DNA of 64,000 bases. Origin: Shinella lacus (GTDB taxonomy: Bacteria > Pseudomonadota > Alphaproteobacteria > Rhizobiales > Rhizobiaceae). Location: positions 434,001 through 498,000 of the forward strand of contig NZ_WHSB02000001.1 in NCBI RefSeq assembly GCF_010994755.1, given 5' to 3'. Position numbers and translations under genes: made by a program. Each line of letters begins with the position of its first letter. Within the stretch, counting starts at the first letter, position 1. This document shows, in pieces, positions 48,342 to 63,175 of this stretch. Below the pieces are notes generated by a model. The model worked only from the letters and a program-made list of their open reading frames with translations, made no database searches and was not told the DNA's origin.

Positions 48342-51058
<2,717 letters not shown>

Positions 51059-51062
<4 letters not shown>

Positions 51063-51814
51063 TGCGGAATGAGCCCGATGCTGATCACGCCGCCGAGATC
51101 GCCCTCATGCGCGCCTTCTTTCGGGTAGCCGGTGATGTCGAGTTCGCCGGCCGGGTCGCCGTGACAGGTGAGACAGGATGGCACGTAATATTCGGGCACC
51201 ATGATGCGTGCCCTCTCCTGGCCGTCCGCCGAAACCAGCGCCGAATAGATCTGCCCCTTCGGCCAGTCGGCGGCTTCCAGATAATCGCGGATCGCGGCCG
51301 CCTCGAAGGCGTCCGGGCGTGCCTTGCGGTTGCGGATCAACACGGGCGGCGCGGTGAACTTCATGCTTGCCTCCTCGCCGACGCGGGCCTGAAAGGCCTC
51401 GGTGACCAGGCGTGTGAAGGTGGCGGGGATGAAGCCCTTGAAGCCCTCTCCCTCGGCGTTGATCGTCGCCTGGTTGGCGTCCATCACCTCGACAACGGCA
51501 TCCATCTGCGCCCGGATGAGCCGCCCCTCATAGGAGGTCGGATCGATGGTGTTCGGGTCGCGGCCGGTGGCCTGCGTGTAATTGGCGATGGCCTTTTCCA
51601 AGACGGCCGCACCCGACAAGCCCTTGTCGCCGAGCGCCGGATCGTTGATCCGCTCCTGGTTGACGGAAATCACCGAGCGCGCCGATTGCAGCATGGTCGC
51701 GAGGCTGCGCGCGATCGCAAGGTCGGCCGGCGCCGCCTCAGTAGCGGCGGCGCTCCCGGACAGCATCTGGAGAACCAAGAGCGCGGCCAGGCCGCATTTC
51801 ATGAACGAGACCAT
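51059..51814 (-). CDS. Exported c-type haem protein, Tll0287-like (DUF3365)
   Basis: 251 residues. A signal peptide (MVSFMKCGLAALLVLQMLSGSAAA) precedes a DUF3365/Tll0287-type PAS-like haem domain. The haem motif C-x2-C-H is CLTCH at 214-218, followed by the typical HGDPAGELDITGYPKEGAHEGDLGGVISI. The domain often forms the sensor part of histidine kinases; here it is a free periplasmic protein made with the kinase. It probably senses redox state, oxygen or NO. ATG 51814 follows GGAGGAGGTG; the longer frame upstream lacks support. Confidence 0.9.
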
Positions 51815-51884
51815 GACCACACCTCCTCCAGCATGCTGCAAAGATAGCGGAATTAAGCTCCCCGGCAACCGGCAATTGATTCGA

Positions 51885-52826
51885 TCAGAAACGGATTTCG
51901 AGCAGCGAGAAGTCGTCCGGCAGCGGGCCTTCCGCGTTGAACGAACGCACCCAGGCGAGAACGCCCTTGGGACCGCATCCTTCCTTCTCCGCGTGCTCGG
52001 CCAGCGCCTCGACGCTCAGCATCTCGTCGCCGGGACCATTCACCTCAAATGTTCCATCACTTATAACGAGCAACCGGTCACCCGGGAAAACACGCGTGAC
52101 TTCGCTGTCGTAGTCCATTTCCGAAAGCGCGCCGATCGCGACGCCGCCGACGGTGATGAGCAGTTCGCGCGACGGCGTGCCTTCCGGCCGGTTCTCACCG
52201 CGCAGCAGGATCGACGGCGGATGGCCGCCTGTCGCATAGCGCAACTCGCCGGTGCTCGCCTTGTAGACGCCGTACCAGATGGTGAAAAACATGTTGTTCT
52301 GCTTTTCCATCGGGAACGTATCGTTGAGCGCCTTCAGGACCGTGGAGGGATCGCGGAAATCCGCATTCGACAGAGCTGACGCCCTCAACACATTGATAAC
52401 AGTGACGGAAAGCAGAGCGGCGCCGACACCGTGGCCGCAGACATCCAAGAGGTAGATGGCGAAATGGTCGTGGTCGATCTGATGGTAGCCGAAGGAATCG
52501 CCGCCGAGTTCGGTGGAGGGCACCAGTAGCCAGTCTGTCGCGGGGGCGGCAATGCGCTTGTCGGGCAAGATGGAGAAGACGTAGCGGCCGGCATCGTTCA
52601 GTTCCTCGTCGAGTCGCGCCTGCGTTCGCTCCAGCAGCAGATTCTGTTCAGCGAGCTGGTCTTCCACGGCCTCGCCATGTTCGATCATCGCCTCGTAGAG
52701 AAGCTTCAGGTCGTCATATTCCTCCTGGAGCTGCGCGAAATCGAGGCGCACCCGGGCAAGTTCCGCGGCGTCATCGCCCGCGGGGGTTGCTGAAGAAGCA
52801 ACGGTTGAGTTTGACAAATCCTTCAT
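51885..52826 (-). CDS. RsbU/SpoIIE-type PP2C phosphatase with N-terminal coiled coil
   Basis: 313 residues. A coiled coil (about 20-80) precedes a SpoIIE-type phosphatase domain with GGDSF (109-113), LLDVCGHGVGAALLS, ATGGHPPSILLRG, GDRLLVISDGTFEV and the last motif DDFSLLEIRF. Such enzymes dephosphorylate STAS-domain antagonists in partner switching. It has no receiver or sensor of its own. It diverges from the partner-switching operon starting at 53021 across 194 bases, so it may act on one of its STAS proteins. Confidence 0.9.
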   Translation of the reverse strand: MKDLSNSTVASSATPAGDDAAELARVRLDFAQLQEEYDDLKLLYEAMIEHGEAVEDQLAEQNLLLERTQARLDEELNDAGRYVFSILPDKRIAAPATDWLLVPSTELGGDSFGYHQIDHDHFAIYLLDVCGHGVGAALLSVTVINVLRASALSNADFRDPSTVLKALNDTFPMEKQNNMFFTIWYGVYKASTGELRYATGGHPPSILLRGENRPEGTPSRELLITVGGVAIGALSEMDYDSEVTRVFPGDRLLVISDGTFEVNGPGDEMLSVEALAEHAEKEGCGPKGVLAWVRSFNAEGPLPDDFSLLEIRF

Positions 52827-53020
52827 GATTGTATGGAAAGCTTTCTTCTTGAGTTCGGAGGGGACGGCGCAACCCGCGATATCATATCGCTAACGTCGAT
52901 CTCCGCTGGCTGCCATGCGCATCGCCCGCACTTCGGACATTACATAGTTTAGGTTTTTCCTGAAAGATATGTAAGCGCGCGGCCGTGATGCCCCCTTACG
53001 AAATCATGAGGCAGGGGCGA

Positions 53021-53539
53021 ATGGATCTGGGTGCAGGGCAGACGGAGGCAGGCGAATTCACGCTGCTTCTGGAATTCGATATGGATATGGCTGGTTTCAC
53101 CTCAAACTGGTCATATTGCGACCGGCTGTCGACCTATTTCGCGCGCATGATCAGTCACAACCGTAGTGATTCGCTGCTTTACTCCAATCTTTTCTCCTCG
53201 GCGCTCAACGAGCTTCTGGAAACCGTGTACCGTCTCCATGCACCGACCGGCAGCTTCGTTTGCTCCGTTTCGCGCAATGGCGCGAAAGACCGGATCGCCC
53301 TCACCATCCCGGTCGATACGGAAACAGAAGGTTTTTATCGGGATGCGGTCGTCGTCCTCAACGGTGGCGACGTTTCGCCGCGCTACCACAACGCGCTGTT
53401 TTCCGACGGGCCATTGCAGCCGAATATCGGCCTGCTCGAACTCGCAGTCGACTACGCCGCCTGCTTCTCCATTGAACCAGCCGACGGAAACGCCATCCGT
53501 CTCATCGCCGAACTCACGCTCGAGGCCAGTGCACCATGA
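53021..53539 (+). CDS. Degenerate GHKL-ATPase-like partner-switch protein
   Basis: 172 residues from ATG 53021 (AGGGGC just upstream); GTG 52985 and two ATGs between are alternatives. No family is obvious alone, but it aligns along its length with the HATPase protein at 57073. NELLETV (63-69) matches the N-box NELLENA, and PNIGLLELAVDYAA matches GSGLGLLTLMSDYGA. The metal-binding Asn of the N-box is Thr and the glycine-rich ATP lid is lost, so it should not phosphorylate anything. It overlaps the STAS-methyltransferase gene by 4 bases and is probably its binding partner. The paralogy is my reading from sequence. Confidence 0.65.
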   Translation: MDLGAGQTEAGEFTLLLEFDMDMAGFTSNWSYCDRLSTYFARMISHNRSDSLLYSNLFSSALNELLETVYRLHAPTGSFVCSVSRNGAKDRIALTIPVDTETEGFYRDAVVVLNGGDVSPRYHNALFSDGPLQPNIGLLELAVDYAACFSIEPADGNAIRLIAELTLEASAP

Positions 53540-54714
53540 TCGCCGAAAAGCTTGTCCAGACCTACAAGGTTTCCTTCGACCAGAACAACCAGGAGCTCGC
53601 ACTTGCAGGCTCGATGCGGCCGCAGCGCGCCGCCGAGATGGCCGATTGCGTCAAGCTTCTGGAAACGTCGCTCGCCTCGATCAGGGGAACGTTCTACGTA
53701 AACGTGAAACGCCTCGTGCGCCTCAACAACGTGGCATTCCATTCGCTTGCGGGTGCCTTGCTGAAAGCGGCGGAAGAACGGCCGGACATCAAGATCACCA
53801 TCATCACGTCGAGCGTGATCGGCTGGTCAACGAAGAAATTCGGTACACTCACGGCGAAGAACCCGAAAATCGTCGTCGAGGAATATGACAGCGAGTTCTA
53901 TCCCGGCCAGGCTTTCCTCGAAGAAGGCGGCTTCGTGCCGGTGCTACGCACCCAGACGAAGCTCACCTGGAAGCACGAACGCGCCATCTTGCCGCGTCAT
54001 GGGCTGGAGCCCGGCATGACCATGGCCGACATCTGCTGCGGCATCGGCGACTTCGCGGTGCTGGTCGCCAAGGAGTTTTCGCCGTCGCGCATCGTGGCAC
54101 TCGACCATTCCAAGTCGAGCCTCGCCTATGCCCGCCAGGTCGCCAGTGAATTCGACATCGGCGGCATCGAGTATATCTACGGCGACGCCGCCGAGATGCT
54201 GCTGGAAGACGGCCAGTTCGATTTCGTTTCTTGCCGCCACGCACTGCAGATCTTCAACAAGCCGGAAATGATCGTCAACGAGCTCGTGCGCATCTGCAAG
54301 CCGGGCGGCCGTGTCTACGTCACCAACGAAAAAATCTCCCAGTGCCTCGGCGAACCGCGCGGTCCCTCCATCGAGTGGACCTACGAACAACTCTCGAAAC
54401 TCTTCGCGGATTTCGACATGGACCTCGAATTCGGTCCGAAGAGCTACCAGGCCCTGCAACGTGCAGGTCTTGAGGACCTTCGCATCGAAAGCTTCATGGT
54501 GACCAACCGCGACGGGGACGCACAAGCCTTCGCTGACATGATCATGGCCTGGGAAGAAATGTTCGCAGGCGGCATGTCGGAAAAACGCGGTGATGACGCC
54601 GCCTTCGTCGAAAAATTCCGCCGCGGCTTCGAAGATCACATTGCTGCTGCCCTTCATCCCGGCGGTTATGCCGGCTGGCCGGTCTGGGTGGCATCGGGAC
54701 GCAAGCCGCGATGA
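53536..54714 (+). CDS. STAS-like domain fused to SAM-dependent methyltransferase
   Basis: 392 residues. Residues 10-117 align with the STAS protein at 57652: YKVSF.../YRVWS... at the start, FYVNVKRLVRLNNVAF against [16 protein letters not shown], and IGW-x2-K against IPW-x2-K. The phospho-acceptor Ser of NSSG is replaced (NNVA, 64-67). Residues 150-390 are a class I methyltransferase: motif I MADICCGIGDF, acidic VALDHSKSS, DFVSCRHALQIFNKP, and VRICKPGGRVYVTNEKI. It should methylate an unknown substrate under control of the STAS-like domain. ATGA overlaps on both sides tie it to the ATPase-like and PP2C genes. Confidence 0.8.
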   Translation: MIAEKLVQTYKVSFDQNNQELALAGSMRPQRAAEMADCVKLLETSLASIRGTFYVNVKRLVRLNNVAFHSLAGALLKAAEERPDIKITIITSSVIGWSTKKFGTLTAKNPKIVVEEYDSEFYPGQAFLEEGGFVPVLRTQTKLTWKHERAILPRHGLEPGMTMADICCGIGDFAVLVAKEFSPSRIVALDHSKSSLAYARQVASEFDIGGIEYIYGDAAEMLLEDGQFDFVSCRHALQIFNKPEMIVNELVRICKPGGRVYVTNEKISQCLGEPRGPSIEWTYEQLSKLFADFDMDLEFGPKSYQALQRAGLEDLRIESFMVTNRDGDAQAFADMIMAWEEMFAGGMSEKRGDDAAFVEKFRRGFEDHIAAALHPGGYAGWPVWVASGRKPR

Positions 54715-57068
54715 GCGAGATTGCAGGGACACCACCCTCGCGTTGGGGATTTTCACTGACGTCGTTCCGCGCGAAATTCGTGCTGGTCGTCGGCGGCGCC
54801 GTGCTGGTGGACCTGTTGGTTGCCGGCGGCATCGCGCTATGGAACGTCAATCGCCTCTCCACCAATGCGATGGACGAGGTCGGTCGCGGTCTCGAAAAGG
54901 CGAACATCGAATATCTGCAGAACTATCTCGAGACGACGGTCGAGCGCACCGACCTCCTGCTCGACCGTTACCATGCGGAAGTGACCGGCCTTGCCGGGTC
55001 GATGCAGACGTTCATCGACAATCCTGCGCTGTCCGACAAGCTTGGCCAGCAGCTTCAAACCGATGGTGTGACCACCCCGCTTACCTATAACCAGGCGGGC
55101 AATTGGTGGCAGAACCAGGCAGGCGAGGCTTCGGCTGTCACCGTCTGGGGTTATCTGCTCGACGAAAACAAGCAGCCGACCCCGGAGGCGATGAAAACCG
55201 TGCGCGAAAGCGCCATTTTCAACCTCGTCGGCCCAAGCTTCCTTTCGGCCGGTCCGCCGAAATTGCAGATGTACTATATCGGCCCCCGCGCAAACCCGAT
55301 CCTGCGCTCGACGCCCTACAACGACCAGGGCTCGGTCTTCGACAAGGTCTATCCGGGCCACAATGAGACGAATTGGTGGGACTTCTACTTCCCCGGCCTC
55401 TACGAGACGTGGCAGTCGTGGCTCGCCACACCGACGGAGCGCCCCGTCGACAGCCAGATCACCATGCTGTCGCCCTATCTCGACGGCATCACGGGCAAGA
55501 TCATCGTCAGCTTCTTCCAGCCGTTGGCGACACCCGACCGCAAGGACCTGAACGGCATCGTCGGCGTCGACCTGACGCTCGACCAGCTCGCCGATATCGT
55601 CAAGAGCGTCAAGATCGCAGAGACGGGCTTCGCGTTCCTCACCATGTCGAACGGCAACGTGCTTGCCGTCACCGAACAGGGCGAGAAGACGCTCGGCGTC
55701 AAGATAAACAATGAAAGCGGCTTCGACCGGCGGCTGGCGCACAGCAATCAGGCCGCCATCGCTTCGCTCGCCATGCCGTCAACAACCGAGACCGTGCTCA
55801 CCAATGTGACGCTGAAGGAGAACGGTGAGGACGTGCCTTATGTCGTGTTGCTCAAGCAACTCGAGGCGGAGAACCTCTATACCGGCAAGGTCCCCGTCAC
55901 CCGCGAAGTCATGTCGCTCGGCTTCATGGTTCCGGAACACGAGATCTATGCCTCGCTGATTGCAGCCAAGCAGGGCATTTCCGACGAGACGCGCCAGGTC
56001 GTAACTTGGCAGATCGGCACCGTCATCCTTTCACTGCTGGTCGTTCTCAGCGCCGTCTTCGCGATTTCCGGCCGAATCACCGCCGGCCTTCGGGCACTGG
56101 TCGAGGCGGCTCAGCGCTTGCAGAACAAGGATTACTCCGTCCGTGTGGCCATTCCCGCGCGCGACGAGGTGGCCGCGGTCGGCATCGCCTTCAACCGCAT
56201 GGCGGAAGAGATCAGCTACCACACGGAAAATCTTGAAAACCTGGTGGCTGTGCGCACGAAAGCGCTCGAAACCGCCAATGGCGAAATCAACGCGCTGAAT
56301 GCCAAGCTGAAGAGCGAGAACCTGCGGCTTGGCGCCGAGCTCGACGTCGCGCGGCAGATCCAGATGATGGTGCTGCCGCGGCGCGACGAGCTCGACGAGA
56401 TCAAGGGCATCGACGTTTCCGGTTACATGGAGCCAGCCGACGAAGTGGGCGGCGACTATTTCGACGTGCTGCACGACGATCGGCGCATGAAGGTCGGTAT
56501 CGGCGACGTGACGGGCCACGGGCTCGAAAGCGGCGTGTTGATGCTGATGGTGCAATCCGTGGCGCGCGCGCTCCAGGAACAGGGCGACGAGAACCCGCGC
56601 GAATTCCTGGAAGTCCTCAATCGCGCCGTCTTCAAGAACATCCAGCGCACCAAGACCGACAAACATCTTTCGCTCGCCTTCCTCGACTACGCAGATCGCA
56701 AGATGACCCTGTCGGGCCAGCACGAGGAAGTGCTCGTGCTGCGCGACAATGACGAGGTCGAGCGCATCGATACCGTCGACCTCGGCTTCCCGATCGGCCT
56801 TGAAAGCGACATCGGCCCGTTCATCTCCACGCATGAATTCCCGTTCGATACCGGCGATGTCATCGTGTTGCATACGGACGGTGTTACCGAGGCGGAAAGC
56901 CCCGGGGGCGAACTCTTCGGGTTCGACCGGCTGTGCGAGAGCGCCAAGAAACGCCGCAGGGAAACCGCCGACGAGATCAAGGATGGCATCATCGCCGATC
57001 TCATGGCGCATATCGGCACGCAGAAAATCCACGACGACATCACGCTCGTCGTCATGAAACACAGGTAA
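54711..57068 (+). CDS. Membrane sensor PP2C phosphatase (dCache-HAMP-SpoIIE)
   Basis: 785 residues. TM1 about 22-45, a large periplasmic dCache-like domain (about 46-430), TM2 433-455, HAMP 455-505, a coiled coil, and a SpoIIE-type phosphatase domain (about 570-785). Phosphatase motifs: RQIQMMVLPRR, GGDYFD (580-), GIGDVTGHGLESG, HTDGVTEAES and DDITLVVMKHR. This is the SiaA/RsbU-like layout: a signal outside controls removal of phosphate from a STAS partner. It overlaps the methyltransferase gene by 4 bases and precedes the HATPase gene by 4 bases. Its most likely substrate is phospho-Ser of the 57652 STAS protein. Confidence 0.9.
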   Translation: MSEIAGTPPSRWGFSLTSFRAKFVLVVGGAVLVDLLVAGGIALWNVNRLSTNAMDEVGRGLEKANIEYLQNYLETTVERTDLLLDRYHAEVTGLAGSMQTFIDNPALSDKLGQQLQTDGVTTPLTYNQAGNWWQNQAGEASAVTVWGYLLDENKQPTPEAMKTVRESAIFNLVGPSFLSAGPPKLQMYYIGPRANPILRSTPYNDQGSVFDKVYPGHNETNWWDFYFPGLYETWQSWLATPTERPVDSQITMLSPYLDGITGKIIVSFFQPLATPDRKDLNGIVGVDLTLDQLADIVKSVKIAETGFAFLTMSNGNVLAVTEQGEKTLGVKINNESGFDRRLAHSNQAAIASLAMPSTTETVLTNVTLKENGEDVPYVVLLKQLEAENLYTGKVPVTREVMSLGFMVPEHEIYASLIAAKQGISDETRQVVTWQIGTVILSLLVVLSAVFAISGRITAGLRALVEAAQRLQNKDYSVRVAIPARDEVAAVGIAFNRMAEEISYHTENLENLVAVRTKALETANGEINALNAKLKSENLRLGAELDVARQIQMMVLPRRDELDEIKGIDVSGYMEPADEVGGDYFDVLHDDRRMKVGIGDVTGHGLESGVLMLMVQSVARALQEQGDENPREFLEVLNRAVFKNIQRTKTDKHLSLAFLDYADRKMTLSGQHEEVLVLRDNDEVERIDTVDLGFPIGLESDIGPFISTHEFPFDTGDVIVLHTDGVTEAESPGGELFGFDRLCESAKKRRRETADEIKDGIIADLMAHIGTQKIHDDITLVVMKHR

Positions 57069-57072
57069 GGTC

Positions 57073-57621
57073 ATGGAAGCCACATTCGGACAGGTGGAAT
57101 TCACCAATGGCGCCGGCGCGCTGAAGAACCGCATCCGTCTTGCCGACGGTCCGCTCGACCTCACCTGGCAGCATTGCGGCGTTACCTCGGAGTTCCTGGG
57201 CGACTTCTTCGCCCTGCAACGGGTGGAGAAGGGCGGCGACTATAACGAAGCGCGTCACTCGATCGGCTACCTGACGAACGAGCTTTTGGAAAACGCGCTG
57301 AAATTCCGCCATGGTAACGGCATCACGCTGGAAGCCTCGCTTGACGGCGCCTCCTTTGAGATCCGTATCAGCAACGTGATCACCCAGGAGACGGCCGGAA
57401 AATTCCAGGCGCTGCTCGCCGAACTGACGACGCGCGATCCGGGCGAGCTTCTCATCGAACGCATCGAAGAAAATGCGGAGAACATGAATTCGAGCGGCTC
57501 GGGCCTTGGCCTGCTCACCTTAATGAGCGACTATGGCGCGCGTCTCGGCTGGCGTTTTCAACCGGCGACTGAGCCGGATACAATGCGCCTCGAAACCTAC
57601 GCCGCCCTCGAGATCGTTTGA
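57073..57621 (+). CDS. GHKL-type kinase/anti-STAS protein (slr1658-like)
   Basis: 182 residues. The N-box is NELLENALKF (69-78) with Asn 74 present, and the G2 box is SGSGLGLLTL (141-150). The layout matches the slr1658-type regulators that pair with an slr1659-type STAS protein. It should phosphorylate the STAS protein encoded 30 bases downstream, while the PP2C upstream reverses this. Its relative at 53021 has lost the key residues. Kinase activity and partner are inferred from family context. Confidence 0.8.
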   Translation: MEATFGQVEFTNGAGALKNRIRLADGPLDLTWQHCGVTSEFLGDFFALQRVEKGGDYNEARHSIGYLTNELLENALKFRHGNGITLEASLDGASFEIRISNVITQETAGKFQALLAELTTRDPGELLIERIEENAENMNSSGSGLGLLTLMSDYGARLGWRFQPATEPDTMRLETYAALEIV

Positions 57622-57651
57622 GCAGATATTACCGGGAGTTGATTGTAAAAA

Positions 57652-57990
57652 ATGGAAATCAAGACAAACGAATATAGGGTCTGGAGCGAGGGTTCGGCGA
57701 TCCATTACGAAGGCACGATGCGCCTTTCCGGTACGGAAGCCTATGCGCCCATCCTCGACCTCATGAAACAGGTGCTGGACGAGAAGCCGGAGAGCATCAC
57801 GCTCGATTTGTCCGGGCTCGAATTTCTGAACTCCTCCGGCATCAACCTGCTCGCGAAATTCACCATCGACGTGCGCAAGCAGCCGGGCACCGGCCTGATG
57901 GTCAAGGGCAGCACGCAGATTCCGTGGCAGTCGAAATCCCTGCCGAACCTCAAGAAGCTGCATCCCGCCGTCAACCTGGTAATCGCCTGA
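57652..57990 (+). CDS. STAS-domain partner-switch protein (slr1659-like)
   Basis: 112 residues, a single STAS domain. [22 protein letters not shown] carries the phospho-acceptor serines S61/S62 (N60-S-S-G), and the C-terminus has [23 protein letters not shown] as in the slr1659 group. It probably cycles between phosphorylated (by 57073) and free (via a PP2C) forms and passes the state to an unknown target. Its last 20 bases overlap the 3' end of the kinase gene on the opposite strand. Confidence 0.85.
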
Positions 57991-58729
57991 CCGCCAGCAG
58001 CCGCACGAAATCTGCGGCGGACGGACGTTTCGCCGCTTCCCCCAACCCGGTCCGCAGCAGACGCAGCAGGTCGGGCTCGTCGTGTTCCAAGGCATCCGGA
58101 ACCGCGAATGCCGACTGTTCTCCGGCGATCCGCCGGCACACCACAGCTTCCGCATCGCCGGAATAGGGTTTCTGCCCCGTCAGCAGGAACAGGCCGAGGG
58201 CTGCGAGCGACCATAGGTCCGCTTCCGGCCCGACGGCTCCGCCGGTAAGCTGCTCGGGCGCCATCCAGGCCGGCGTGCCGGAAAGCTCTTCACGCTGGAG
58301 ATCGTCGCCGGGCGTTCCGGCAATGCCGAAATCGATAAGCACCGGCGTCTCGCCGCGAAATAGCACATGCGCAGGCTTCACATCGCGATGCACCACGCCT
58401 CGAGCGTGGATGTAGGCAAGCGCATCGGCTAGGCGAGAAAGCAATGCCGCGACCACGGAAGGCACGACCGGCGGCTCAGGCAGCGCGTCTTCCAGCGCTT
58501 CGAAGGCGATCCAGTTTTCGCCCTCGCCAAGAAGTCGCGGCAGCGCGGGATGCGGCAGGAGATGCGTGAACCGGCGCTCCCGCTCGAACCGGCGCAAGGC
58601 CCCGGTGTCCTGCACCTCCACCACCCGCTTGACGACGACGGGCGTGCCCTCCCCGATCCGCGATCGGTAGACCAGGACGGGGCCACGCCCGCGCAGCACC
58701 TCCCAAACCGGCGGCACGCCGTCGCCCAT
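57971..58729 (-). CDS. Ser/Thr protein kinase of the T6SS locus (PpkA/ImpN-like)
   Basis: 252 residues, a bare kinase domain. ATP lysine in VVVKRVV, catalytic loop [14 protein letters not shown] in LIDFGIAG, and the activation segment [14 protein letters not shown] with [19 protein letters not shown]. The Asn of HRDxKxxN is His here, so metal handling may be altered. In rhizobial imp clusters a Ser/Thr kinase (ImpN) controls assembly by phosphorylating FHA proteins. ATG 58729 lies 4 bases after the methyltransferase stop. Its 3' end overlaps the STAS gene tail to tail. Confidence 0.85.
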
Positions 58730-58733
58730 GGCG

Positions 58734-60272
58734 CTAGATCGCGCCGACCCGCCGCCACATCGGCAGGGCCACGGCAATGATCATTTCGACATTCTCCCGG
58801 ATGACGCGCAGCGCCTGCGCATCGTCCTCGATCGGCACGCCGCCGTTGCGCAGACGGTCGCCGCGCTCCTGCAACTGGGCGTGAATGGCAGTTGTCACCG
58901 CGTCGGCCTCCGGCTCGGCGCCATCGACCAGCACCTCGTAGGCCAGCATTTCGAACAGGCGCACTGTGATACCGGAGCCAAGACCGGCGGCGGCCAGCGC
59001 GCAGACGGCACGCGCCTCGTCGGCGCAGATACGCAGGTGGGCGCGGTTGTAACGCCGTACCGAGGCCACCCCCTCCTCCGTCACAGCATTCGGCAGTGCC
59101 ATCGCCTGGCGCGAGCCGATCAGCATACCCAGTACCTCGCGCTCAGTAGCGCTCGAACCGTCCGCCTCCGGCAGGCTCCTGAGTTCACCGATCGTCATCG
59201 GGCGTGCGACAAGGGCATCCAGGGCTGGGCGGTAGAAACTCTCATTGAGAGCCGCCTCACCGACAGGCACCTTCACTGCCAGCTTGATCTCAGACGGTGG
59301 CACGACGAGGCAGAGCCCGCGGGCCGCAAGCCGCTGCTCCAACCGCCGTGGCGCGATCGGTCGAGCACCGCGCATGTAAATGTCGCGGCGGAAGCTGCGG
59401 ACAAGGAAAAAATCCCTGGCGGTTTCGGCATAGACCTCAGGAAAACCCTCGACGAGACTGCGCTGTTCGGCGGTCATGGAAAGGTCTGGATAGTTCTCGA
59501 AGAGATTGGCGGTCGCAGCGAAGGAAAGTTTCGCCTCCGCCAGATCCCGCGCAACGTCGATCTGGTAGCAGGGCGCCCAATGCGCGTTCAAATATTCGTG
59601 GCTGAGGTAAGCGGTGCCATCCGCCCGCTCCGTATCCAGTCGGTCGAGCATGTCGATCGAGATCATGTCGGCGCCGGCGGCGGAAAAGGCGCGCGCCATG
59701 TCGAGCCCGCGCAGCACGCGTCGGTCGCTGCGATCATTGTCGAGCGACGCGGTGAGGCTGACCAGCCGCTGCATCGGCATCGACGACGTCCAGCGTGGCA
59801 GGGCATTATAAGTGACATAGAGCAGCCCGCCGGGCTTCAGATAACGCGCGGCAAAGCGAACGATATGGCCACGGTTTTCCGTGCTGACCCAACTCCAGAC
59901 GCCGTGCAGCGCGATATAGTCGAACATCGGCAGGCCAGCGTAACCGCCATCGGCGAGGTCTTCGAAGGACGCTTCTTCCAGGCGGATGTTGCCTACCCCG
60001 CCGGCGTCAGCAAGCGCGCGGCCTCTTGCGATATGGGCCGGGTTGAAATCAAAGCCCCAGACGCTGCTTTGCGGATTGGCCGCGGCGATCGTCAGCGCCG
60101 TCTCGCCGACCCCGCAACCCAGCTCGCAATAGGCGAAGGGCGCGCCCTCCTCGACCGGCGGCTCGATGCCGCGCAACAGGCAGGCCACATCCATATGTGC
60201 TGGCGTCTGCTCGACATAAAATCCGGGCAGATATTCGATGTCGGAAACGTAGCCGTTGGTCCAGTCGTTCAT
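58734..60272 (-). CDS. SAM methyltransferase with regulatory domain, T6SS-linked
   Basis: 512 residues. The class I methyltransferase core is N-terminal (CELGCGVGETALTIAAANP, WGFDFNPAHI, FDYIALHGVWSWVS, LKPGGLLYVTYNALPRW). The C-terminal half resembles the methyltransferase regulatory domain family (MethyTransf_Reg), found after such cores. It lies between tssG and the kinase gene, 12 bases from tssG. Substrate unknown; methylation of a secretion or signalling protein is possible. It is not related in domain layout to the STAS-methyltransferase at 53536. Confidence 0.85.
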   Translation of the reverse strand: MNDWTNGYVSDIEYLPGFYVEQTPAHMDVACLLRGIEPPVEEGAPFAYCELGCGVGETALTIAAANPQSSVWGFDFNPAHIARGRALADAGGVGNIRLEEASFEDLADGGYAGLPMFDYIALHGVWSWVSTENRGHIVRFAARYLKPGGLLYVTYNALPRWTSSMPMQRLVSLTASLDNDRSDRRVLRGLDMARAFSAAGADMISIDMLDRLDTERADGTAYLSHEYLNAHWAPCYQIDVARDLAEAKLSFAATANLFENYPDLSMTAEQRSLVEGFPEVYAETARDFFLVRSFRRDIYMRGARPIAPRRLEQRLAARGLCLVVPPSEIKLAVKVPVGEAALNESFYRPALDALVARPMTIGELRSLPEADGSSATEREVLGMLIGSRQAMALPNAVTEEGVASVRRYNRAHLRICADEARAVCALAAAGLGSGITVRLFEMLAYEVLVDGAEPEADAVTTAIHAQLQERGDRLRNGGVPIEDDAQALRVIRENVEMIIAVALPMWRRVGAI

Positions 60273-60284
60273 GAAAAATCCTAA

Positions 60285-61376
60285 CTAGCGCAAATGTGGC
60301 GGCGGGCGGAATTGGATGGAAGCGGGTTTTTGGCGCGGGCGGGCGGGCTGGAGCCAGGTGTTCCAGCCGAGACGGCTTGCCTTCGGCTCTTCGCGATGCC
60401 CGCCGAGTTGCAACGCCGGAACTTGGTCGGGCTTTAGTTCCAAGCGGATGTTGAACATCTTGTCGGCGCCGAGTGCGCCCGCAGCAAGGTCCGTGAGCAG
60501 GCGCGCGCGTTTTCCATCCGGCAGCAGCGAACGGAAGGCGGGATAATCCAGCGCCTCCAGGCAGATCGTCACGGCGGACTGGATGTCGAAGGTCTTCGTG
60601 CCGATCACCGCGTCGTCGCCCAGACGCGCGAAGGCGCCCTTCGGCTGGGCGCGGTCAGGCAGGCGCGTGCGGTCGGAAGACGCGATCGGATACCATTCCC
60701 CGGAAAACTGCTCGACGCGCAGCCTGTGGCCGAGCGCGCCGGAGAGCGCCCGCTCGATCGCCGTGGCGGAGCGGCCCTGCCGGGCAAGCAGGCCACCGAA
60801 GAAGACGAAGGCGTGATCGCCGATATGCGTCCGGTTCGCTGTCGCCGGAAGCCCAAGCCCGACGAGGGATTTCAACGCATGGTCGATGGTGGCGGCGGTG
60901 CCAAGCTGGGCCGCCCGCTCACGCTCGATGGCGGGACGGTATTTTGCCCAGGCGTTGTAAAGCAACCCGGAAAGCCGGTTGTTGAAGACGTCGAAGAATT
61001 CGCGCAGCGCAAAATTGCGCTCGCGCACGCTTACCTGCACGAGTTCGCTCAGCGCATGCGGAAGCACTCCCGAAGGGCCTGTGAGACCGACCAGCGTCTG
61101 CGTCATCTCGACCGGCCCGCCACCACGTGGCCTGCGCACGGAGAGAACCTCGGCAGAGGCGAAACCGAGTGGCACCGACGAGCGGATTTTTAGCGCCGCG
61201 CGCTCTGGATCCACGCCCTGCCCGACGGGATCGACCGGCTGATGCGAAACGTCACGCCCCTTCTCGGCGCCGAGCGCCTCCAGCAGGCGAACCATCTGGA
61301 AGAGCTCGAAAGCCTGCGGTGCCTCAAAGACACTCGCAACTAGAGAAGAATTCGATCGCCTGCCCGTGCCGGCCAT
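60285..61376 (-). CDS. tssG: Type VI secretion baseplate protein TssG
   Basis: 363 residues. TssG (ImpH/VasB) landmarks: FELFQMVRLLEALG near the N-terminus, KIRSSVPLGFASAEVLSV, LTGPSGVLPHALSELV, FNNRLSGLLYNAWAKYRPAIE, FQQFSGEW-type segment VEQFSGEWYP, and a C-terminal LGWNTWLQ. It is part of the baseplate wedge with TssE, TssF and TssK. ATG 61376 lies inside tssF (37-base overlap), so it depends on tssF translation. Confidence 0.92.
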   Translation of the reverse strand: MAGTGRRSNSSLVASVFEAPQAFELFQMVRLLEALGAEKGRDVSHQPVDPVGQGVDPERAALKIRSSVPLGFASAEVLSVRRPRGGGPVEMTQTLVGLTGPSGVLPHALSELVQVSVRERNFALREFFDVFNNRLSGLLYNAWAKYRPAIERERAAQLGTAATIDHALKSLVGLGLPATANRTHIGDHAFVFFGGLLARQGRSATAIERALSGALGHRLRVEQFSGEWYPIASSDRTRLPDRAQPKGAFARLGDDAVIGTKTFDIQSAVTICLEALDYPAFRSLLPDGKRARLLTDLAAGALGADKMFNIRLELKPDQVPALQLGGHREEPKASRLGWNTWLQPARPRQKPASIQFRPPPHLR

Positions 61377-63175
61377 GTCTTCAGCTTTCCGCTTCGCCCC
61401 CTCACCAGGGCGGTGAGCCGTGAGAATGAATTGACGCTCGCATAGAGACCCAGGAAGCGCTCGATGATGCTGGCCATCAGGAAGACGCCGTTGCCGGAGA
61501 AATTGCTCTCCTCGAAGGTCATCGTCACATCGACCCCCCGGCAGAAAGCGCTTTGGCCAAAACTCCTGACACGCGCCGTACCGCTTTGCGATGACAGCGC
61601 CGTGATGCCGTCGATCAGGGCGCGGGTTTCGGCGGAATTGCGGAAATCGTAGAGCAGCAGGATTTCCTTCAACGCCTCTACGCCGCCATCCGAGACGAGC
61701 GAGAGATGGTTGAGCGCCAGATGCGAGATCAGCCGCCAGCGCCCGCCCTGGCCATAATGCGGCCGGATCGTCGGGGTCGGCACGGTGAGGAGACGCATGG
61801 TCTTCACCATCGGCACCGGCTCGACCATGCGCAGTAGCGGCTGGCCGCCGCCGAAGGGCAGACGCTCTGGCCGGTTGCGGTTGAGGCAGAGCGTCTCCAC
61901 CGAAAGCACGTCGTCGGCAATGGCCTTCGGGTTGAAATCCGGATCGGAGAGCGAGAGGAACACCTCGCTGCCGGGGTTCTCTTCCTCGGCCTGCCGGCGA
62001 TGGGAAAGCCACCAGGCGGCCGACCGTTCCTCGCCGCGCAGCGCCTCGCCATCGGCGCCGTGGCGGATTCCGTAGAACGGCAGCAGCGCCCGCGCGTCGC
62101 CTTCGGCGGTTACGGTGGAGACGCCTTCGATGCTGTAGACTTCCAGCGCATGCAGCCGGCGGCTATCGGGCACGACGCGGTATTCGGTGACGGTCCGGTC
62201 GAGCTTGATCGGCTCGGCCGCCTGCGGAAACAGGTTGACGATCGGCGTGCAGCCGAGCGCGAAGGCGGCAGCCGTGAGCGAACGTTCGAGACTCGGCACG
62301 GAACGGTTGAGATAGATGAAGACGTCGAGCGTGCGGCCCTTGCCGGCAAGGCGGGCCGCGTCCGGGAAAGCGAGATCGACGAACAGGAACTTTTCCGGGA
62401 AGGCGAAATATTCGGTGAGCAGCCGGTAGGCCGGGTGCGAGGCCTGCGGATAGGGCAACATGCTCTCGTCCTGGCCGAAACCGCCGGGCGACAGCGCCGA
62501 AGCATCGAGCATCGCCGGATTGCGGTCGTTTGCGCCTTCGGCGAAGGCGACAGCCACCGCGTCGTTCAACAGAAGCTCGTAGAGGGGATAGACCAACTGC
62601 GGCTGGCCGCGCAGGAAGAAGCGCAGGCGACCGGGATTATAGCTCGAAAAATCGAGGCCCTCGCCGGCCATTTCCAGCGTGAGGCGCAAGCAACCCGCCG
62701 CATTGTGCGCCTGCGGCGTCTCCGGCGCGGTGATGGGACGGCCGGTCAGCGTCGCGGAACGAACGACGACCGGGTGCAACGTGACGTCGAAACAGGTGGA
62801 GAAGCGGCAGCGCTCGCCGTCGACGGGCTCGGTATCGAGCAAAGTGCCCACGGGTACGTGATGTGGCTCCTGAAGCTCGACCTTCGGGTCGAGCTGGAGG
62901 ATGGACATGGAGGGGATCGGGCGGTCGAAATGCGGATAGAGGATGCCGAGCATGGCATTGGTCAGCTCGGGAAAATCGTCGTCCATCTTCTGCCGCACGC
63001 GGGCGGTGAGATAGGCGAAGGCCTCGATCAGGCGGCCGACATGCGGGTCTTCGATCGCATCCTCGGACAGCCGCAACCGGCCGGCAATGCGCGGGTTTTC
63101 CGCGGCAAAGGCGGCGGCGGCCCTGCGGATGCTGAGAAGTTCGCGGTTATAGTGGACGAGCAGATCATCCGACAT
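61340..63175 (-). CDS. tssF: Type VI secretion baseplate protein TssF
   Basis: 611 residues, TssF (ImpG/VasA) length. It begins MSDDLLVHYNRELLSIRRAAAAFAAENPRIAGRL and RLIEAFAYLTARVRQKMDDDFPELTNAMLGILYPH, and has FFLRGQPQLVYPLYELLLND and DVTMTFEESNFSGNGVFLMASIIERFLGLYASVNSFSRL, all TssF hallmarks. It builds the wedge with TssG at the cytosolic face. The ribosome site is modest (GAGAGGGG 12 bases away), and a short open frame with a strong site overlaps the start (see 63165-63242). Confidence 0.93.
   Translation of the reverse strand: MSDDLLVHYNRELLSIRRAAAAFAAENPRIAGRLRLSEDAIEDPHVGRLIEAFAYLTARVRQKMDDDFPELTNAMLGILYPHFDRPIPSMSILQLDPKVELQEPHHVPVGTLLDTEPVDGERCRFSTCFDVTLHPVVVRSATLTGRPITAPETPQAHNAAGCLRLTLEMAGEGLDFSSYNPGRLRFFLRGQPQLVYPLYELLLNDAVAVAFAEGANDRNPAMLDASALSPGGFGQDESMLPYPQASHPAYRLLTEYFAFPEKFLFVDLAFPDAARLAGKGRTLDVFIYLNRSVPSLERSLTAAAFALGCTPIVNLFPQAAEPIKLDRTVTEYRVVPDSRRLHALEVYSIEGVSTVTAEGDARALLPFYGIRHGADGEALRGEERSAAWWLSHRRQAEEENPGSEVFLSLSDPDFNPKAIADDVLSVETLCLNRNRPERLPFGGGQPLLRMVEPVPMVKTMRLLTVPTPTIRPHYGQGGRWRLISHLALNHLSLVSDGGVEALKEILLLYDFRNSAETRALIDGITALSSQSGTARVRSFGQSAFCRGVDVTMTFEESNFSGNGVFLMASIIERFLGLYASVNSFSRLTALVRGRSGKLKTWPARAGDRILL

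Follow-up and report, generated by a model that had tools for sequence, protein, structure and literature searches.

Partner switches are usually seen as devices that work by phosphorylation and whose outputs are sigma factors or diguanylate cyclases. In Sinorhizobium meliloti, the BgrSTUWV partner switch controls the diguanylate cyclase BgrR (PMC8457831 and PMC7647112, citing Baena et al. 2019; here and below, statements on the two citing papers draw on excerpts of them). BgrU and BgrW are the phosphatase/kinase couple, BgrV is the STAS protein, and biochemistry of these three has been reported for S. meliloti (PMC7647112, PMC8457831); as far as the citing papers go, the published function covers BgrU, BgrW, BgrV and BgrR. 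We analysed a stretch of 64,000 nucleotides of Shinella lacus (the window, numbered from its first nucleotide) that carries an operon of this type, in which one of two kinase/STAS pairs has lost the residues used in phosphorylation and carries a methyltransferase. By its sequence, this phosphorylation-blind pair is a real and conserved variant, with putative binding and a putative substrate.

A bgr-type operon in the window

The operon consists of five co-directional genes on the + strand at 53021-57990. They are nearly continuous, with overlaps of 4 bp at the first two junctions and gaps of 4 and 30 bp at the next two. The five open reading frames (ORFs), named below by their start positions, lie where the first-pass annotation of this DNA had placed them:

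53021..53539, + strand: BgrS-like pseudokinase, slr1658-like and GHKL-derived, without the N-box Asn, the G1-like Asn and an intact G2 box (172 amino acids from an ATG; an alternative GTG start at 52985 is possible)
53536..54714, + strand: BgrT-like fusion of 392 amino acids, with a slr1659-like STAS domain (about residues 8-115, Asn65 replacing the phospho-Ser) and a class I S-adenosylmethionine (SAM) methyltransferase (about residues 140-392) whose C-terminal region is conserved
54711..57068, + strand: BgrU-like membrane PP2C of 785 amino acids, with a sensor region, HAMP and SpoIIE PP2C domains (a dCache match is sub-threshold)
57073..57621, + strand: BgrW-like intact kinase of the slr1658 family, 182 amino acids, with motifs NELLENA, SN and SGSGLG
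57652..57990, + strand: BgrV-like intact STAS protein of the slr1659 family, 112 amino acids, with motif LNSSGI

Gene order and assigned activities fit gene by gene, so we infer with near certainty that this is bgrS-T-U-W-V of S. meliloti. The operon is not new, and the window holds a variant of it. The abstract of Baena et al. 2019 (Environ Microbiol, PMID 30963697) reportedly describes a hexacistronic operon in which bgrR is SMb20447. The S. meliloti loci that we retrieved (L085, from strain 1021, and L119) have six genes in the order GGDEF-EAL protein, pseudokinase, fusion, PP2C, kinase and STAS protein. The window has the five-gene bgrSTUWV arrangement and not the six-gene one with BgrR directly upstream: no BgrR-type GGDEF-EAL gene stands beside its operon as a target linked to cyclic di-GMP (c-di-GMP), and the source genome gave no full-length match to BgrR, all 19 matches at E <= 1e-30 running from residue 89 or later of its 564. 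The first-pass annotation had suggested methyltransfer as a possible output, one that it had not seen described for partner switching. It missed that the operon is known and that its output shown in S. meliloti is a diguanylate cyclase. The literature searched, which did not extend to Baena et al. 2019, gave no description of a role for BgrS or BgrT. Literature searches on partner switching with STAS proteins and a pseudokinase returned no match, and the excerpts of the mixed-linkage glucan literature mention no methyltransferase.

The last two genes are, by sequence, an intact slr1658/slr1659-type pair of a GHKL-like kinase and a STAS protein. They score above the curated NCBIfam cut-off, which is 100 bits for both families (57073 against slr1658_superfam, NF047703: E 3.2e-55, 186.4 bits; 57652 against slr1659_superfam, NF047705: E 2e-42, 144 bits). 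The pair is single-copy in the source genome, where the next kinase match reaches only E 0.43 and slr1659 matches at E <= 0.01 are limited to 57652 itself and the fusion 53536. A sequence search of the PDB with 57073 gave no match. For the membrane phosphatases of the 54711 type we looked at Asp and Gly residues of four catalytic motifs, and these do not vary in any of 80 rows.

A kinase/STAS pair without its phosphorylation residues

The genes 53021 and 53536 are clearly remote paralogues of 57073 and 57652 on profile evidence, as first annotated. 53021 matches slr1658_superfam at E 7.6e-9 (35.2 bits) and residues 8-110 of 53536 match slr1659_superfam at E 8.7e-10 (38.9 bits), both under the 100-bit cut-off, and BLASTP links the paralogues only weakly (E 0.001 and 0.003). 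Comparison by hhalign of profiles built from related loci gives a probability of 95.7% for the kinase halves (E 1e-8, 132 columns) and of 95.0% for the STAS halves (E 3.6e-8, 96 columns), against 0.1-0.8% in four cross-controls, which rules out a chance resemblance of the two pairs. A PDB search with the pseudokinase profile returned only a designed protein, at E 1.1. For the STAS half, recent duplication within the operon is ruled out as well, since the profile of the degenerate domain prefers two distant plain slr1659 proteins from other lineages (47.6 and 40.6 bits) to the operon's own STAS proteins (mean 21.4, maximum 29.3 bits, n=79). The kinase-half profile gives no clear order (alphaproteobacterial kinases, mean 18.3 bits, range 5.7-27.9; two distant kinases, 22.5 and 11.4 bits).

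The N-box NELLENA of 57073 has become NELLETV in 53021, and the phosphosite NSSG of 57652 has become NNVA in 53536. To place these changes we compared 105 rows, the window and 104 loci, the latter being the best 80 of 266 fusion relatives in a scan of GTDB contigs (the more distant 186 lie outside the comparison), one S. meliloti plasmid locus and 23 further genome stretches. The window's own copies (L001, L003, L004, L086, L111), off-target loci (L002, L090) and loci retrieved around the intact kinase only (L112-L118) are not counted. A few genomes enter the count two times: among the 99 distinct pseudokinase sequences, six occur in two loci each. The N-box Asn is absent from all 105 degenerate kinases, which have Val in its place in 51 rows, Thr in 36, Ile in 6, Leu in 5, Ala in 4 and Met in 3; all 105 keep the N-box Glu. 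The fusion phosphosite is Asn in 99 rows, Ser in three and Met in three, and the six exceptional fusions still adjoin kinases without the N-box Asn. When identical rows are merged, the N-box Asn is found in 0 of 99 distinct pseudokinases and the STAS-site Asn in 93 of 99 distinct fusions. Of the 84 rows collected for the intact kinase, 80 have the N-box Asn and the other four are degenerate kinases taken up from short loci; intact STAS proteins have the phospho-Ser in 80 of 80. The degeneracy of the pair is fixed across loci and is not local to the window.

Both losses had been read correctly in the first-pass annotation, which understated their extent, since the G1-like Asn and the G2 Gly pattern are gone as well. 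The G1-like Asn occurs in 0 of 105 degenerate kinases, the first G2 glycine in 5 and the second in 42, the window copy among them; intact kinases keep the G1-like Asn and the G2 box in 79-80 of 80 rows and the two G2 glycines in 79 of 80. Because the N-box Asn, the G1-like Asn and the G2 Gly pattern are lost, 53021 is best called a pseudokinase. It lacks the N-box Asn and Gly-rich G2 box of a GHKL protein kinase, it has presumably lost ATP binding, and its N-box helix is partly kept, N63, E64 and E67 being invariant in a 26-row alignment. The window's 53536, with Asn at the phosphosite, likewise lacks the Ser or Thr of a phosphorylatable STAS protein. Public annotation calls the pseudokinase 'ubiquinone biosynthesis methyltransferase UbiE' (L119, L148 and several plasmid records), a name that perhaps came from the adjoining gene.

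The first three genes of the operon have the same order and strand in 104 of 104 loci, and the five genes S-T-U-W-V have the same order on one strand in 79 of the 79 loci that hold them all, as in the window; the other 25 loci are cut short, either where the contig stops or by a short flank. The first-pass annotation had asked whether the two pairs always occur together, and their linkage is constant in the genomes sampled. Among 397 genomes of the order, the host included, the fusion occurs in 21 and a slr1658 kinase over the cut-off in the same 21, about 3.5 kb apart from start to start. Among 385 genomes of the class, the full fusion occurs in four and the kinase in the same four, and a fifth fusion match (82 bits) covers the methyltransferase part only. 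The sample of the phylum (398 genomes) has the kinase over the cut-off in seven genomes, six of the window's family and one, G819, of another class, and sub-cut-off kinase matches only in eight more; among 31 genomes around and including G819, the kinase exceeds the cut-off in G819 alone. The intact pair can exist alone, but the samples of alphaproteobacteria have it together with the degenerate pair. Among the matches listed, the closest named relatives of the window are Shinella loci, with 91-92% identity in the fusion. The complete six-gene form is also found on a contig titled Mycobacterium sp. KBS0706 (L034), which is probably a mislabelled or mixed assembly.

The fused methyltransferase and the neighbouring genes

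The STAS-like domain of 53536 is, as had been annotated, fused to a SAM methyltransferase, and the SAM site is intact and highly conserved. Residues 139-265, approximately, match UbiE-type methyltransferases (PF08241, E 1.4e-17, above the cut-off), which together with the SAM motif makes this a class I SAM methyltransferase. Over the four motifs of the site, the commonest residue is present in 97-105 of 105 rows, except at Tyr215 (90 of 105) and at position 236 (Ser in 95 of 105, Ala in the window). METHYLTRANSFERASE is the part of the operon under the strongest constraint. Mean pairwise identity over the window and the 79 complete loci is 79.8% for the methyltransferase, 73.6% for the PP2C catalytic domain, 70.0% for the intact STAS protein, 62.9% for the PP2C sensor part, 61.4% for the fusion STAS domain, 60.3% for the intact kinase and 54.0% for the pseudokinase, a ranking somewhat biased to the methyltransferase because loci were picked by fusion similarity, with two conserved methyltransferase stretches as patterns. 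The high conservation and the near-invariant SAM site argue for an active methyltransferase with one conserved acceptor.

A PDB search with the fusion matched its methyltransferase half only, with 42 solved chains at E <= 0.01. These are varied, the best being 3mgg (an unnamed methyltransferase) and others acting, by title, on small molecules, lipid headgroups or peptides, and they name no substrate for 53536. A methyltransferase of this family occurring without the pair would have spoken against the first-pass proposal; it was looked for with a 215-residue query, a length that puts most full fusions outside the size range searched, and for none of the 60 matches could absence of the STAS domain be shown. 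All short methyltransferase matches but one (59 of 60, the exception being P0123) were aligned to the fusion and look like fragments, alternative starts or changed ends, and some, judged from the protein only, start at about residue 136-143 on contigs of 16-19 kb and could be separate genes.

The operon is flanked by a soluble phosphatase on one side and by a cluster of the type VI secretion system (T6SS) on the other:

51885..52826, - strand: divergent soluble PP2C (PP2C_s) with the N-terminal coil motif DLKLLYEAMIEHGEAVEDQLA, in the place that the GGDEF-EAL gene bgrR has in S. meliloti
57971..58777, - strand: Hanks-type Ser/Thr kinase, convergent with 57652 and overlapping its end by 20 bp; first gene of the T6SS side
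58734..60272, - strand: SAM methyltransferase with a MethyTransf_Reg domain, the second methyltransferase, on the T6SS side
60285..61328, - strand: TssG (start picked by eye within a longer ORF)
61340..63175, - strand: TssF; the T6SS cluster runs on past the window

The gene upstream of the pseudokinase has been exchanged in the window. Of the 80 loci compared, the window and 79 complete ones, 53 carry a GGDEF-EAL gene immediately upstream, and these form one clade (local support 0.999, midpoint root). The soluble PP2C lies on the opposite strand in 19, the window included, and adjoins the pseudokinase except in L078, where it is 2.5 kb off; neither gene is found in the remaining 8, one of which is cut off. 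TssF was found in the flanking DNA, covered to at most 10 kb, of 12 named loci, and each of the 12 has the soluble PP2C. Seven of them have the run of Hanks-type kinase, methyltransferase, TssG and TssF seen in the window (TssF 1007-1286 bits), and the other five have a distant TssF (167-188 bits) beyond the far side of the PP2C, so the link to the T6SS is loose.

The soluble PP2C is probably part of the window's system, and we propose it as an effector or antagonist. PDB searches with it return PP2C-type proteins, the best being a response-regulator entry. Its N-terminal motif reads DLxLLYxA(T/M)IEHGEAVEDQLA in most copies, and HGEAVED is kept, with variable flanks, in 23 of 23 soluble PP2Cs, all chosen by similarity to that of the window. 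A degenerate form of the motif, looked for in the window's ORFs and in those of nearly all the loci, occurs only in these PP2Cs and, in two copies, in a diguanylate cyclase of G819 (L141, 8322-9140) that adjoins a plain slr1658/slr1659 pair; a scan of the BgrR-type proteins in these loci did not find it. The N-terminal part of the PP2C has a single match among 72,556 plasmid records, in Rhizobium jaguaris, beside that plasmid's copy of the operon. The G819 cyclase matches 7e6g_A, which we take to be SiaD, at E 1.1e-23 over residues 69-270, with 18 other chains ranking above; a PDB search with its coil gave chance-level matches only (best E 0.063). The shared context suggests that the coil motif of the soluble PP2C is a candidate docking helix for a slr1659-type STAS partner.

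Other regulatory genes lie around the locus. At 48342-51868 (-), in the same direction as the soluble PP2C, the window encodes a hybrid histidine kinase that has two receiver domains and is preceded by a Tll0287-domain protein that, among the loci searched, occurs in four Shinella loci only. In the T6SS region beyond the right end of the window, the window's own contig carries a protein with a C-terminal STAS domain (L159, 11373-12713, +) and a response regulator whose best match, sub-cut-off, is Pseudomonas RssB (L160, 5871-7037, +). The T6SS region may have a partner switch of its own.

Possible workings of the switch and comparison with known systems

We tentatively favour, at somewhat less than an even chance, a bgrSTUWV-type switch in which the locked pair 53021/53536 relays the state of the switch to the methyltransferase by binding competition, with the soluble PP2C as another output. 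The membrane PP2C 54711 and the intact kinase 57073 would set the phosphorylation of the STAS protein 57652. The residues for this control are intact; biochemistry of it is reported only for BgrU, BgrW and BgrV of S. meliloti. The 53021/53536 pair, by its residues, could neither phosphorylate nor be phosphorylated, so the STAS domain of 53536 would be locked in an unphosphorylated, binding-competent state. The pseudokinase would bind this domain and so serve an active methyltransferase as its permanent inhibitory or scaffolding subunit. Unphosphorylated 57652 would be a competitor for binding to 53021 or to a shared docking partner; alternatively, the fusion would itself be a permanent competitor of the unphosphorylated form of 57652. 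Through competition by 57652, the signal of the membrane phosphatase would reach the methyltransferase by binding alone. The other output of the window would probably be the soluble PP2C 51885, docked via its coil motif and replacing BgrR. We regard as doubtful a more specific proposal, in which a pseudo-partner-switch works by binding competition with methyltransfer as output and the second output of the Shinella type is a PP2C with a SiaD-like docking helix that governs the neighbouring T6SS.

Several observations weigh against a relay by binding competition. Inter-protein mutual information over 80 paired sequences (effective number 34) gave no specific signal, the maximum z being 7.1 and 7.3 for cognate pairs and 7.4 and 7.5 for crossed pairs. 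The preference of the degenerate STAS profile for slr1659 proteins of other lineages means that the two STAS proteins of the operon are not recent duplicates, and by their sequences they may bind different partners. The loss of the phosphosite is not absolute, given the three fusions with Ser and the three with Met, and residual nucleotide binding by the pseudokinases is possible, as suggested by the second G2 glycine in 42 of 105, the window's included. Finally, with 21 of 397 genomes, the operon is patchy within its order.

Among the alternatives, the fusion might be a decoy or clamp: its Asn-bearing STAS domain would bind 57073, or the target of 57652, as a permanent unphosphorylated stand-in that sets the threshold of the switch, the methyltransferase would methylate part of the switch or of what the switch targets, and 53021 would only help folding or solubility. 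The presence of Asn at 99 of 105 STAS sites suggests selection for a particular unphosphorylatable residue, and in SiaC the loop N67, T68 and S69 contacts the stalk of SiaD, a binding that T68 phosphorylation prevents (PMC8457831). Yet 53021 adjoins the fusion in 104 of 104 loci and keeps N63, E64 and E67 of the N-box helix, beyond the needs of a passive chaperone, and we consider a decoy somewhat unlikely. The methyltransferase arm could instead be a second-messenger or envelope module, with 53536 docking on BgrR (here on the soluble PP2C) such that cyclase and methyltransferase are controlled in one complex. The GGDEF-EAL gene upstream in 53 of 80 loci fits this, as does the diguanylate cyclase that adjoins the plain pair in G819 and shares the coil motif with PP2C_s. 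But the scan of BgrR-type proteins did not find that motif, and the 27 of 80 loci that lack a GGDEF-EAL gene in this place still have all five genes, so the methyltransferase arm does not depend on that gene. We consider the module rather improbable. A third alternative is decay: 53021 and 53536 would be what is left of a duplicated pair and would do nothing in the switch. This would account for the loss of catalytic and acceptor residues in both, but it is hardly credible when the losses are common to all or nearly all loci, the proteins are complete and no domain measured in the operon is more conserved than the methyltransferase.

In SiaABCD of Pseudomonas aeruginosa, a PP2C phosphatase, a kinase and a STAS-like phosphoprotein act on a diguanylate cyclase, and this SiaC-activated cyclase, SiaD, has two SiaC-binding motifs on its stalk (PMC8457831, PMC7647112 for the system; PMC8457831 for the motifs). 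The window operon has the same three types of protein, with a Ser phosphosite instead of Thr68 of SiaC, and the NCBIfam models of SiaA, SiaB and SiaC all stay under their cut-offs (124.9 of 700, 22 of 85 and 14.2 of 150 bits). To our knowledge, the Sia system has no methyltransferase arm. HsbA is likewise a STAS-type protein whose phosphorylation state governs its target cyclase HsbD (PMC8457831, PMC7647112). Such control of a target by the phosphorylation state of a STAS-type protein is common to HsbA-HsbD and Rsb-type switches and is predicted for the operon of the window. We know of no phosphorylation-blind second pair and no methyltransferase in the HsbA-HsbD and Rsb-type switches.

Plain slr1658/slr1659 pairs of the same families are found in G819 (L141), with a SpoIIE PP2C and a diguanylate cyclase, and on plasmid pA of the cyanobacterium Kovacikia minuta (L147). 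The 16 kb stretches of these two loci hold no ORF matching the pseudokinase or the methyltransferase half of the fusion. In L147, the pair sits between two transporter-like (SulP-like) genes, within which we read by eye, from the ORFs, STAS-like and cyclic-nucleotide-binding-like regions.

The closest system is bgrRSTUWV of S. meliloti, which like the window has a degenerate kinase (S), a STAS-methyltransferase (T), a PP2C (U), a kinase (W) and a STAS protein (V), and which S. meliloti 1021 carries at L085. There BgrR lies directly upstream, whereas in the window a divergent soluble PP2C adjoins instead, together with a T6SS cluster on the other side. All 104 related loci examined have kept the phosphorylation-dead pair with its methyltransferase, and those that extend far enough to show it (79 loci) have the live pair next to it; this retention points to an unrecognised output of a system already studied in rhizobia.

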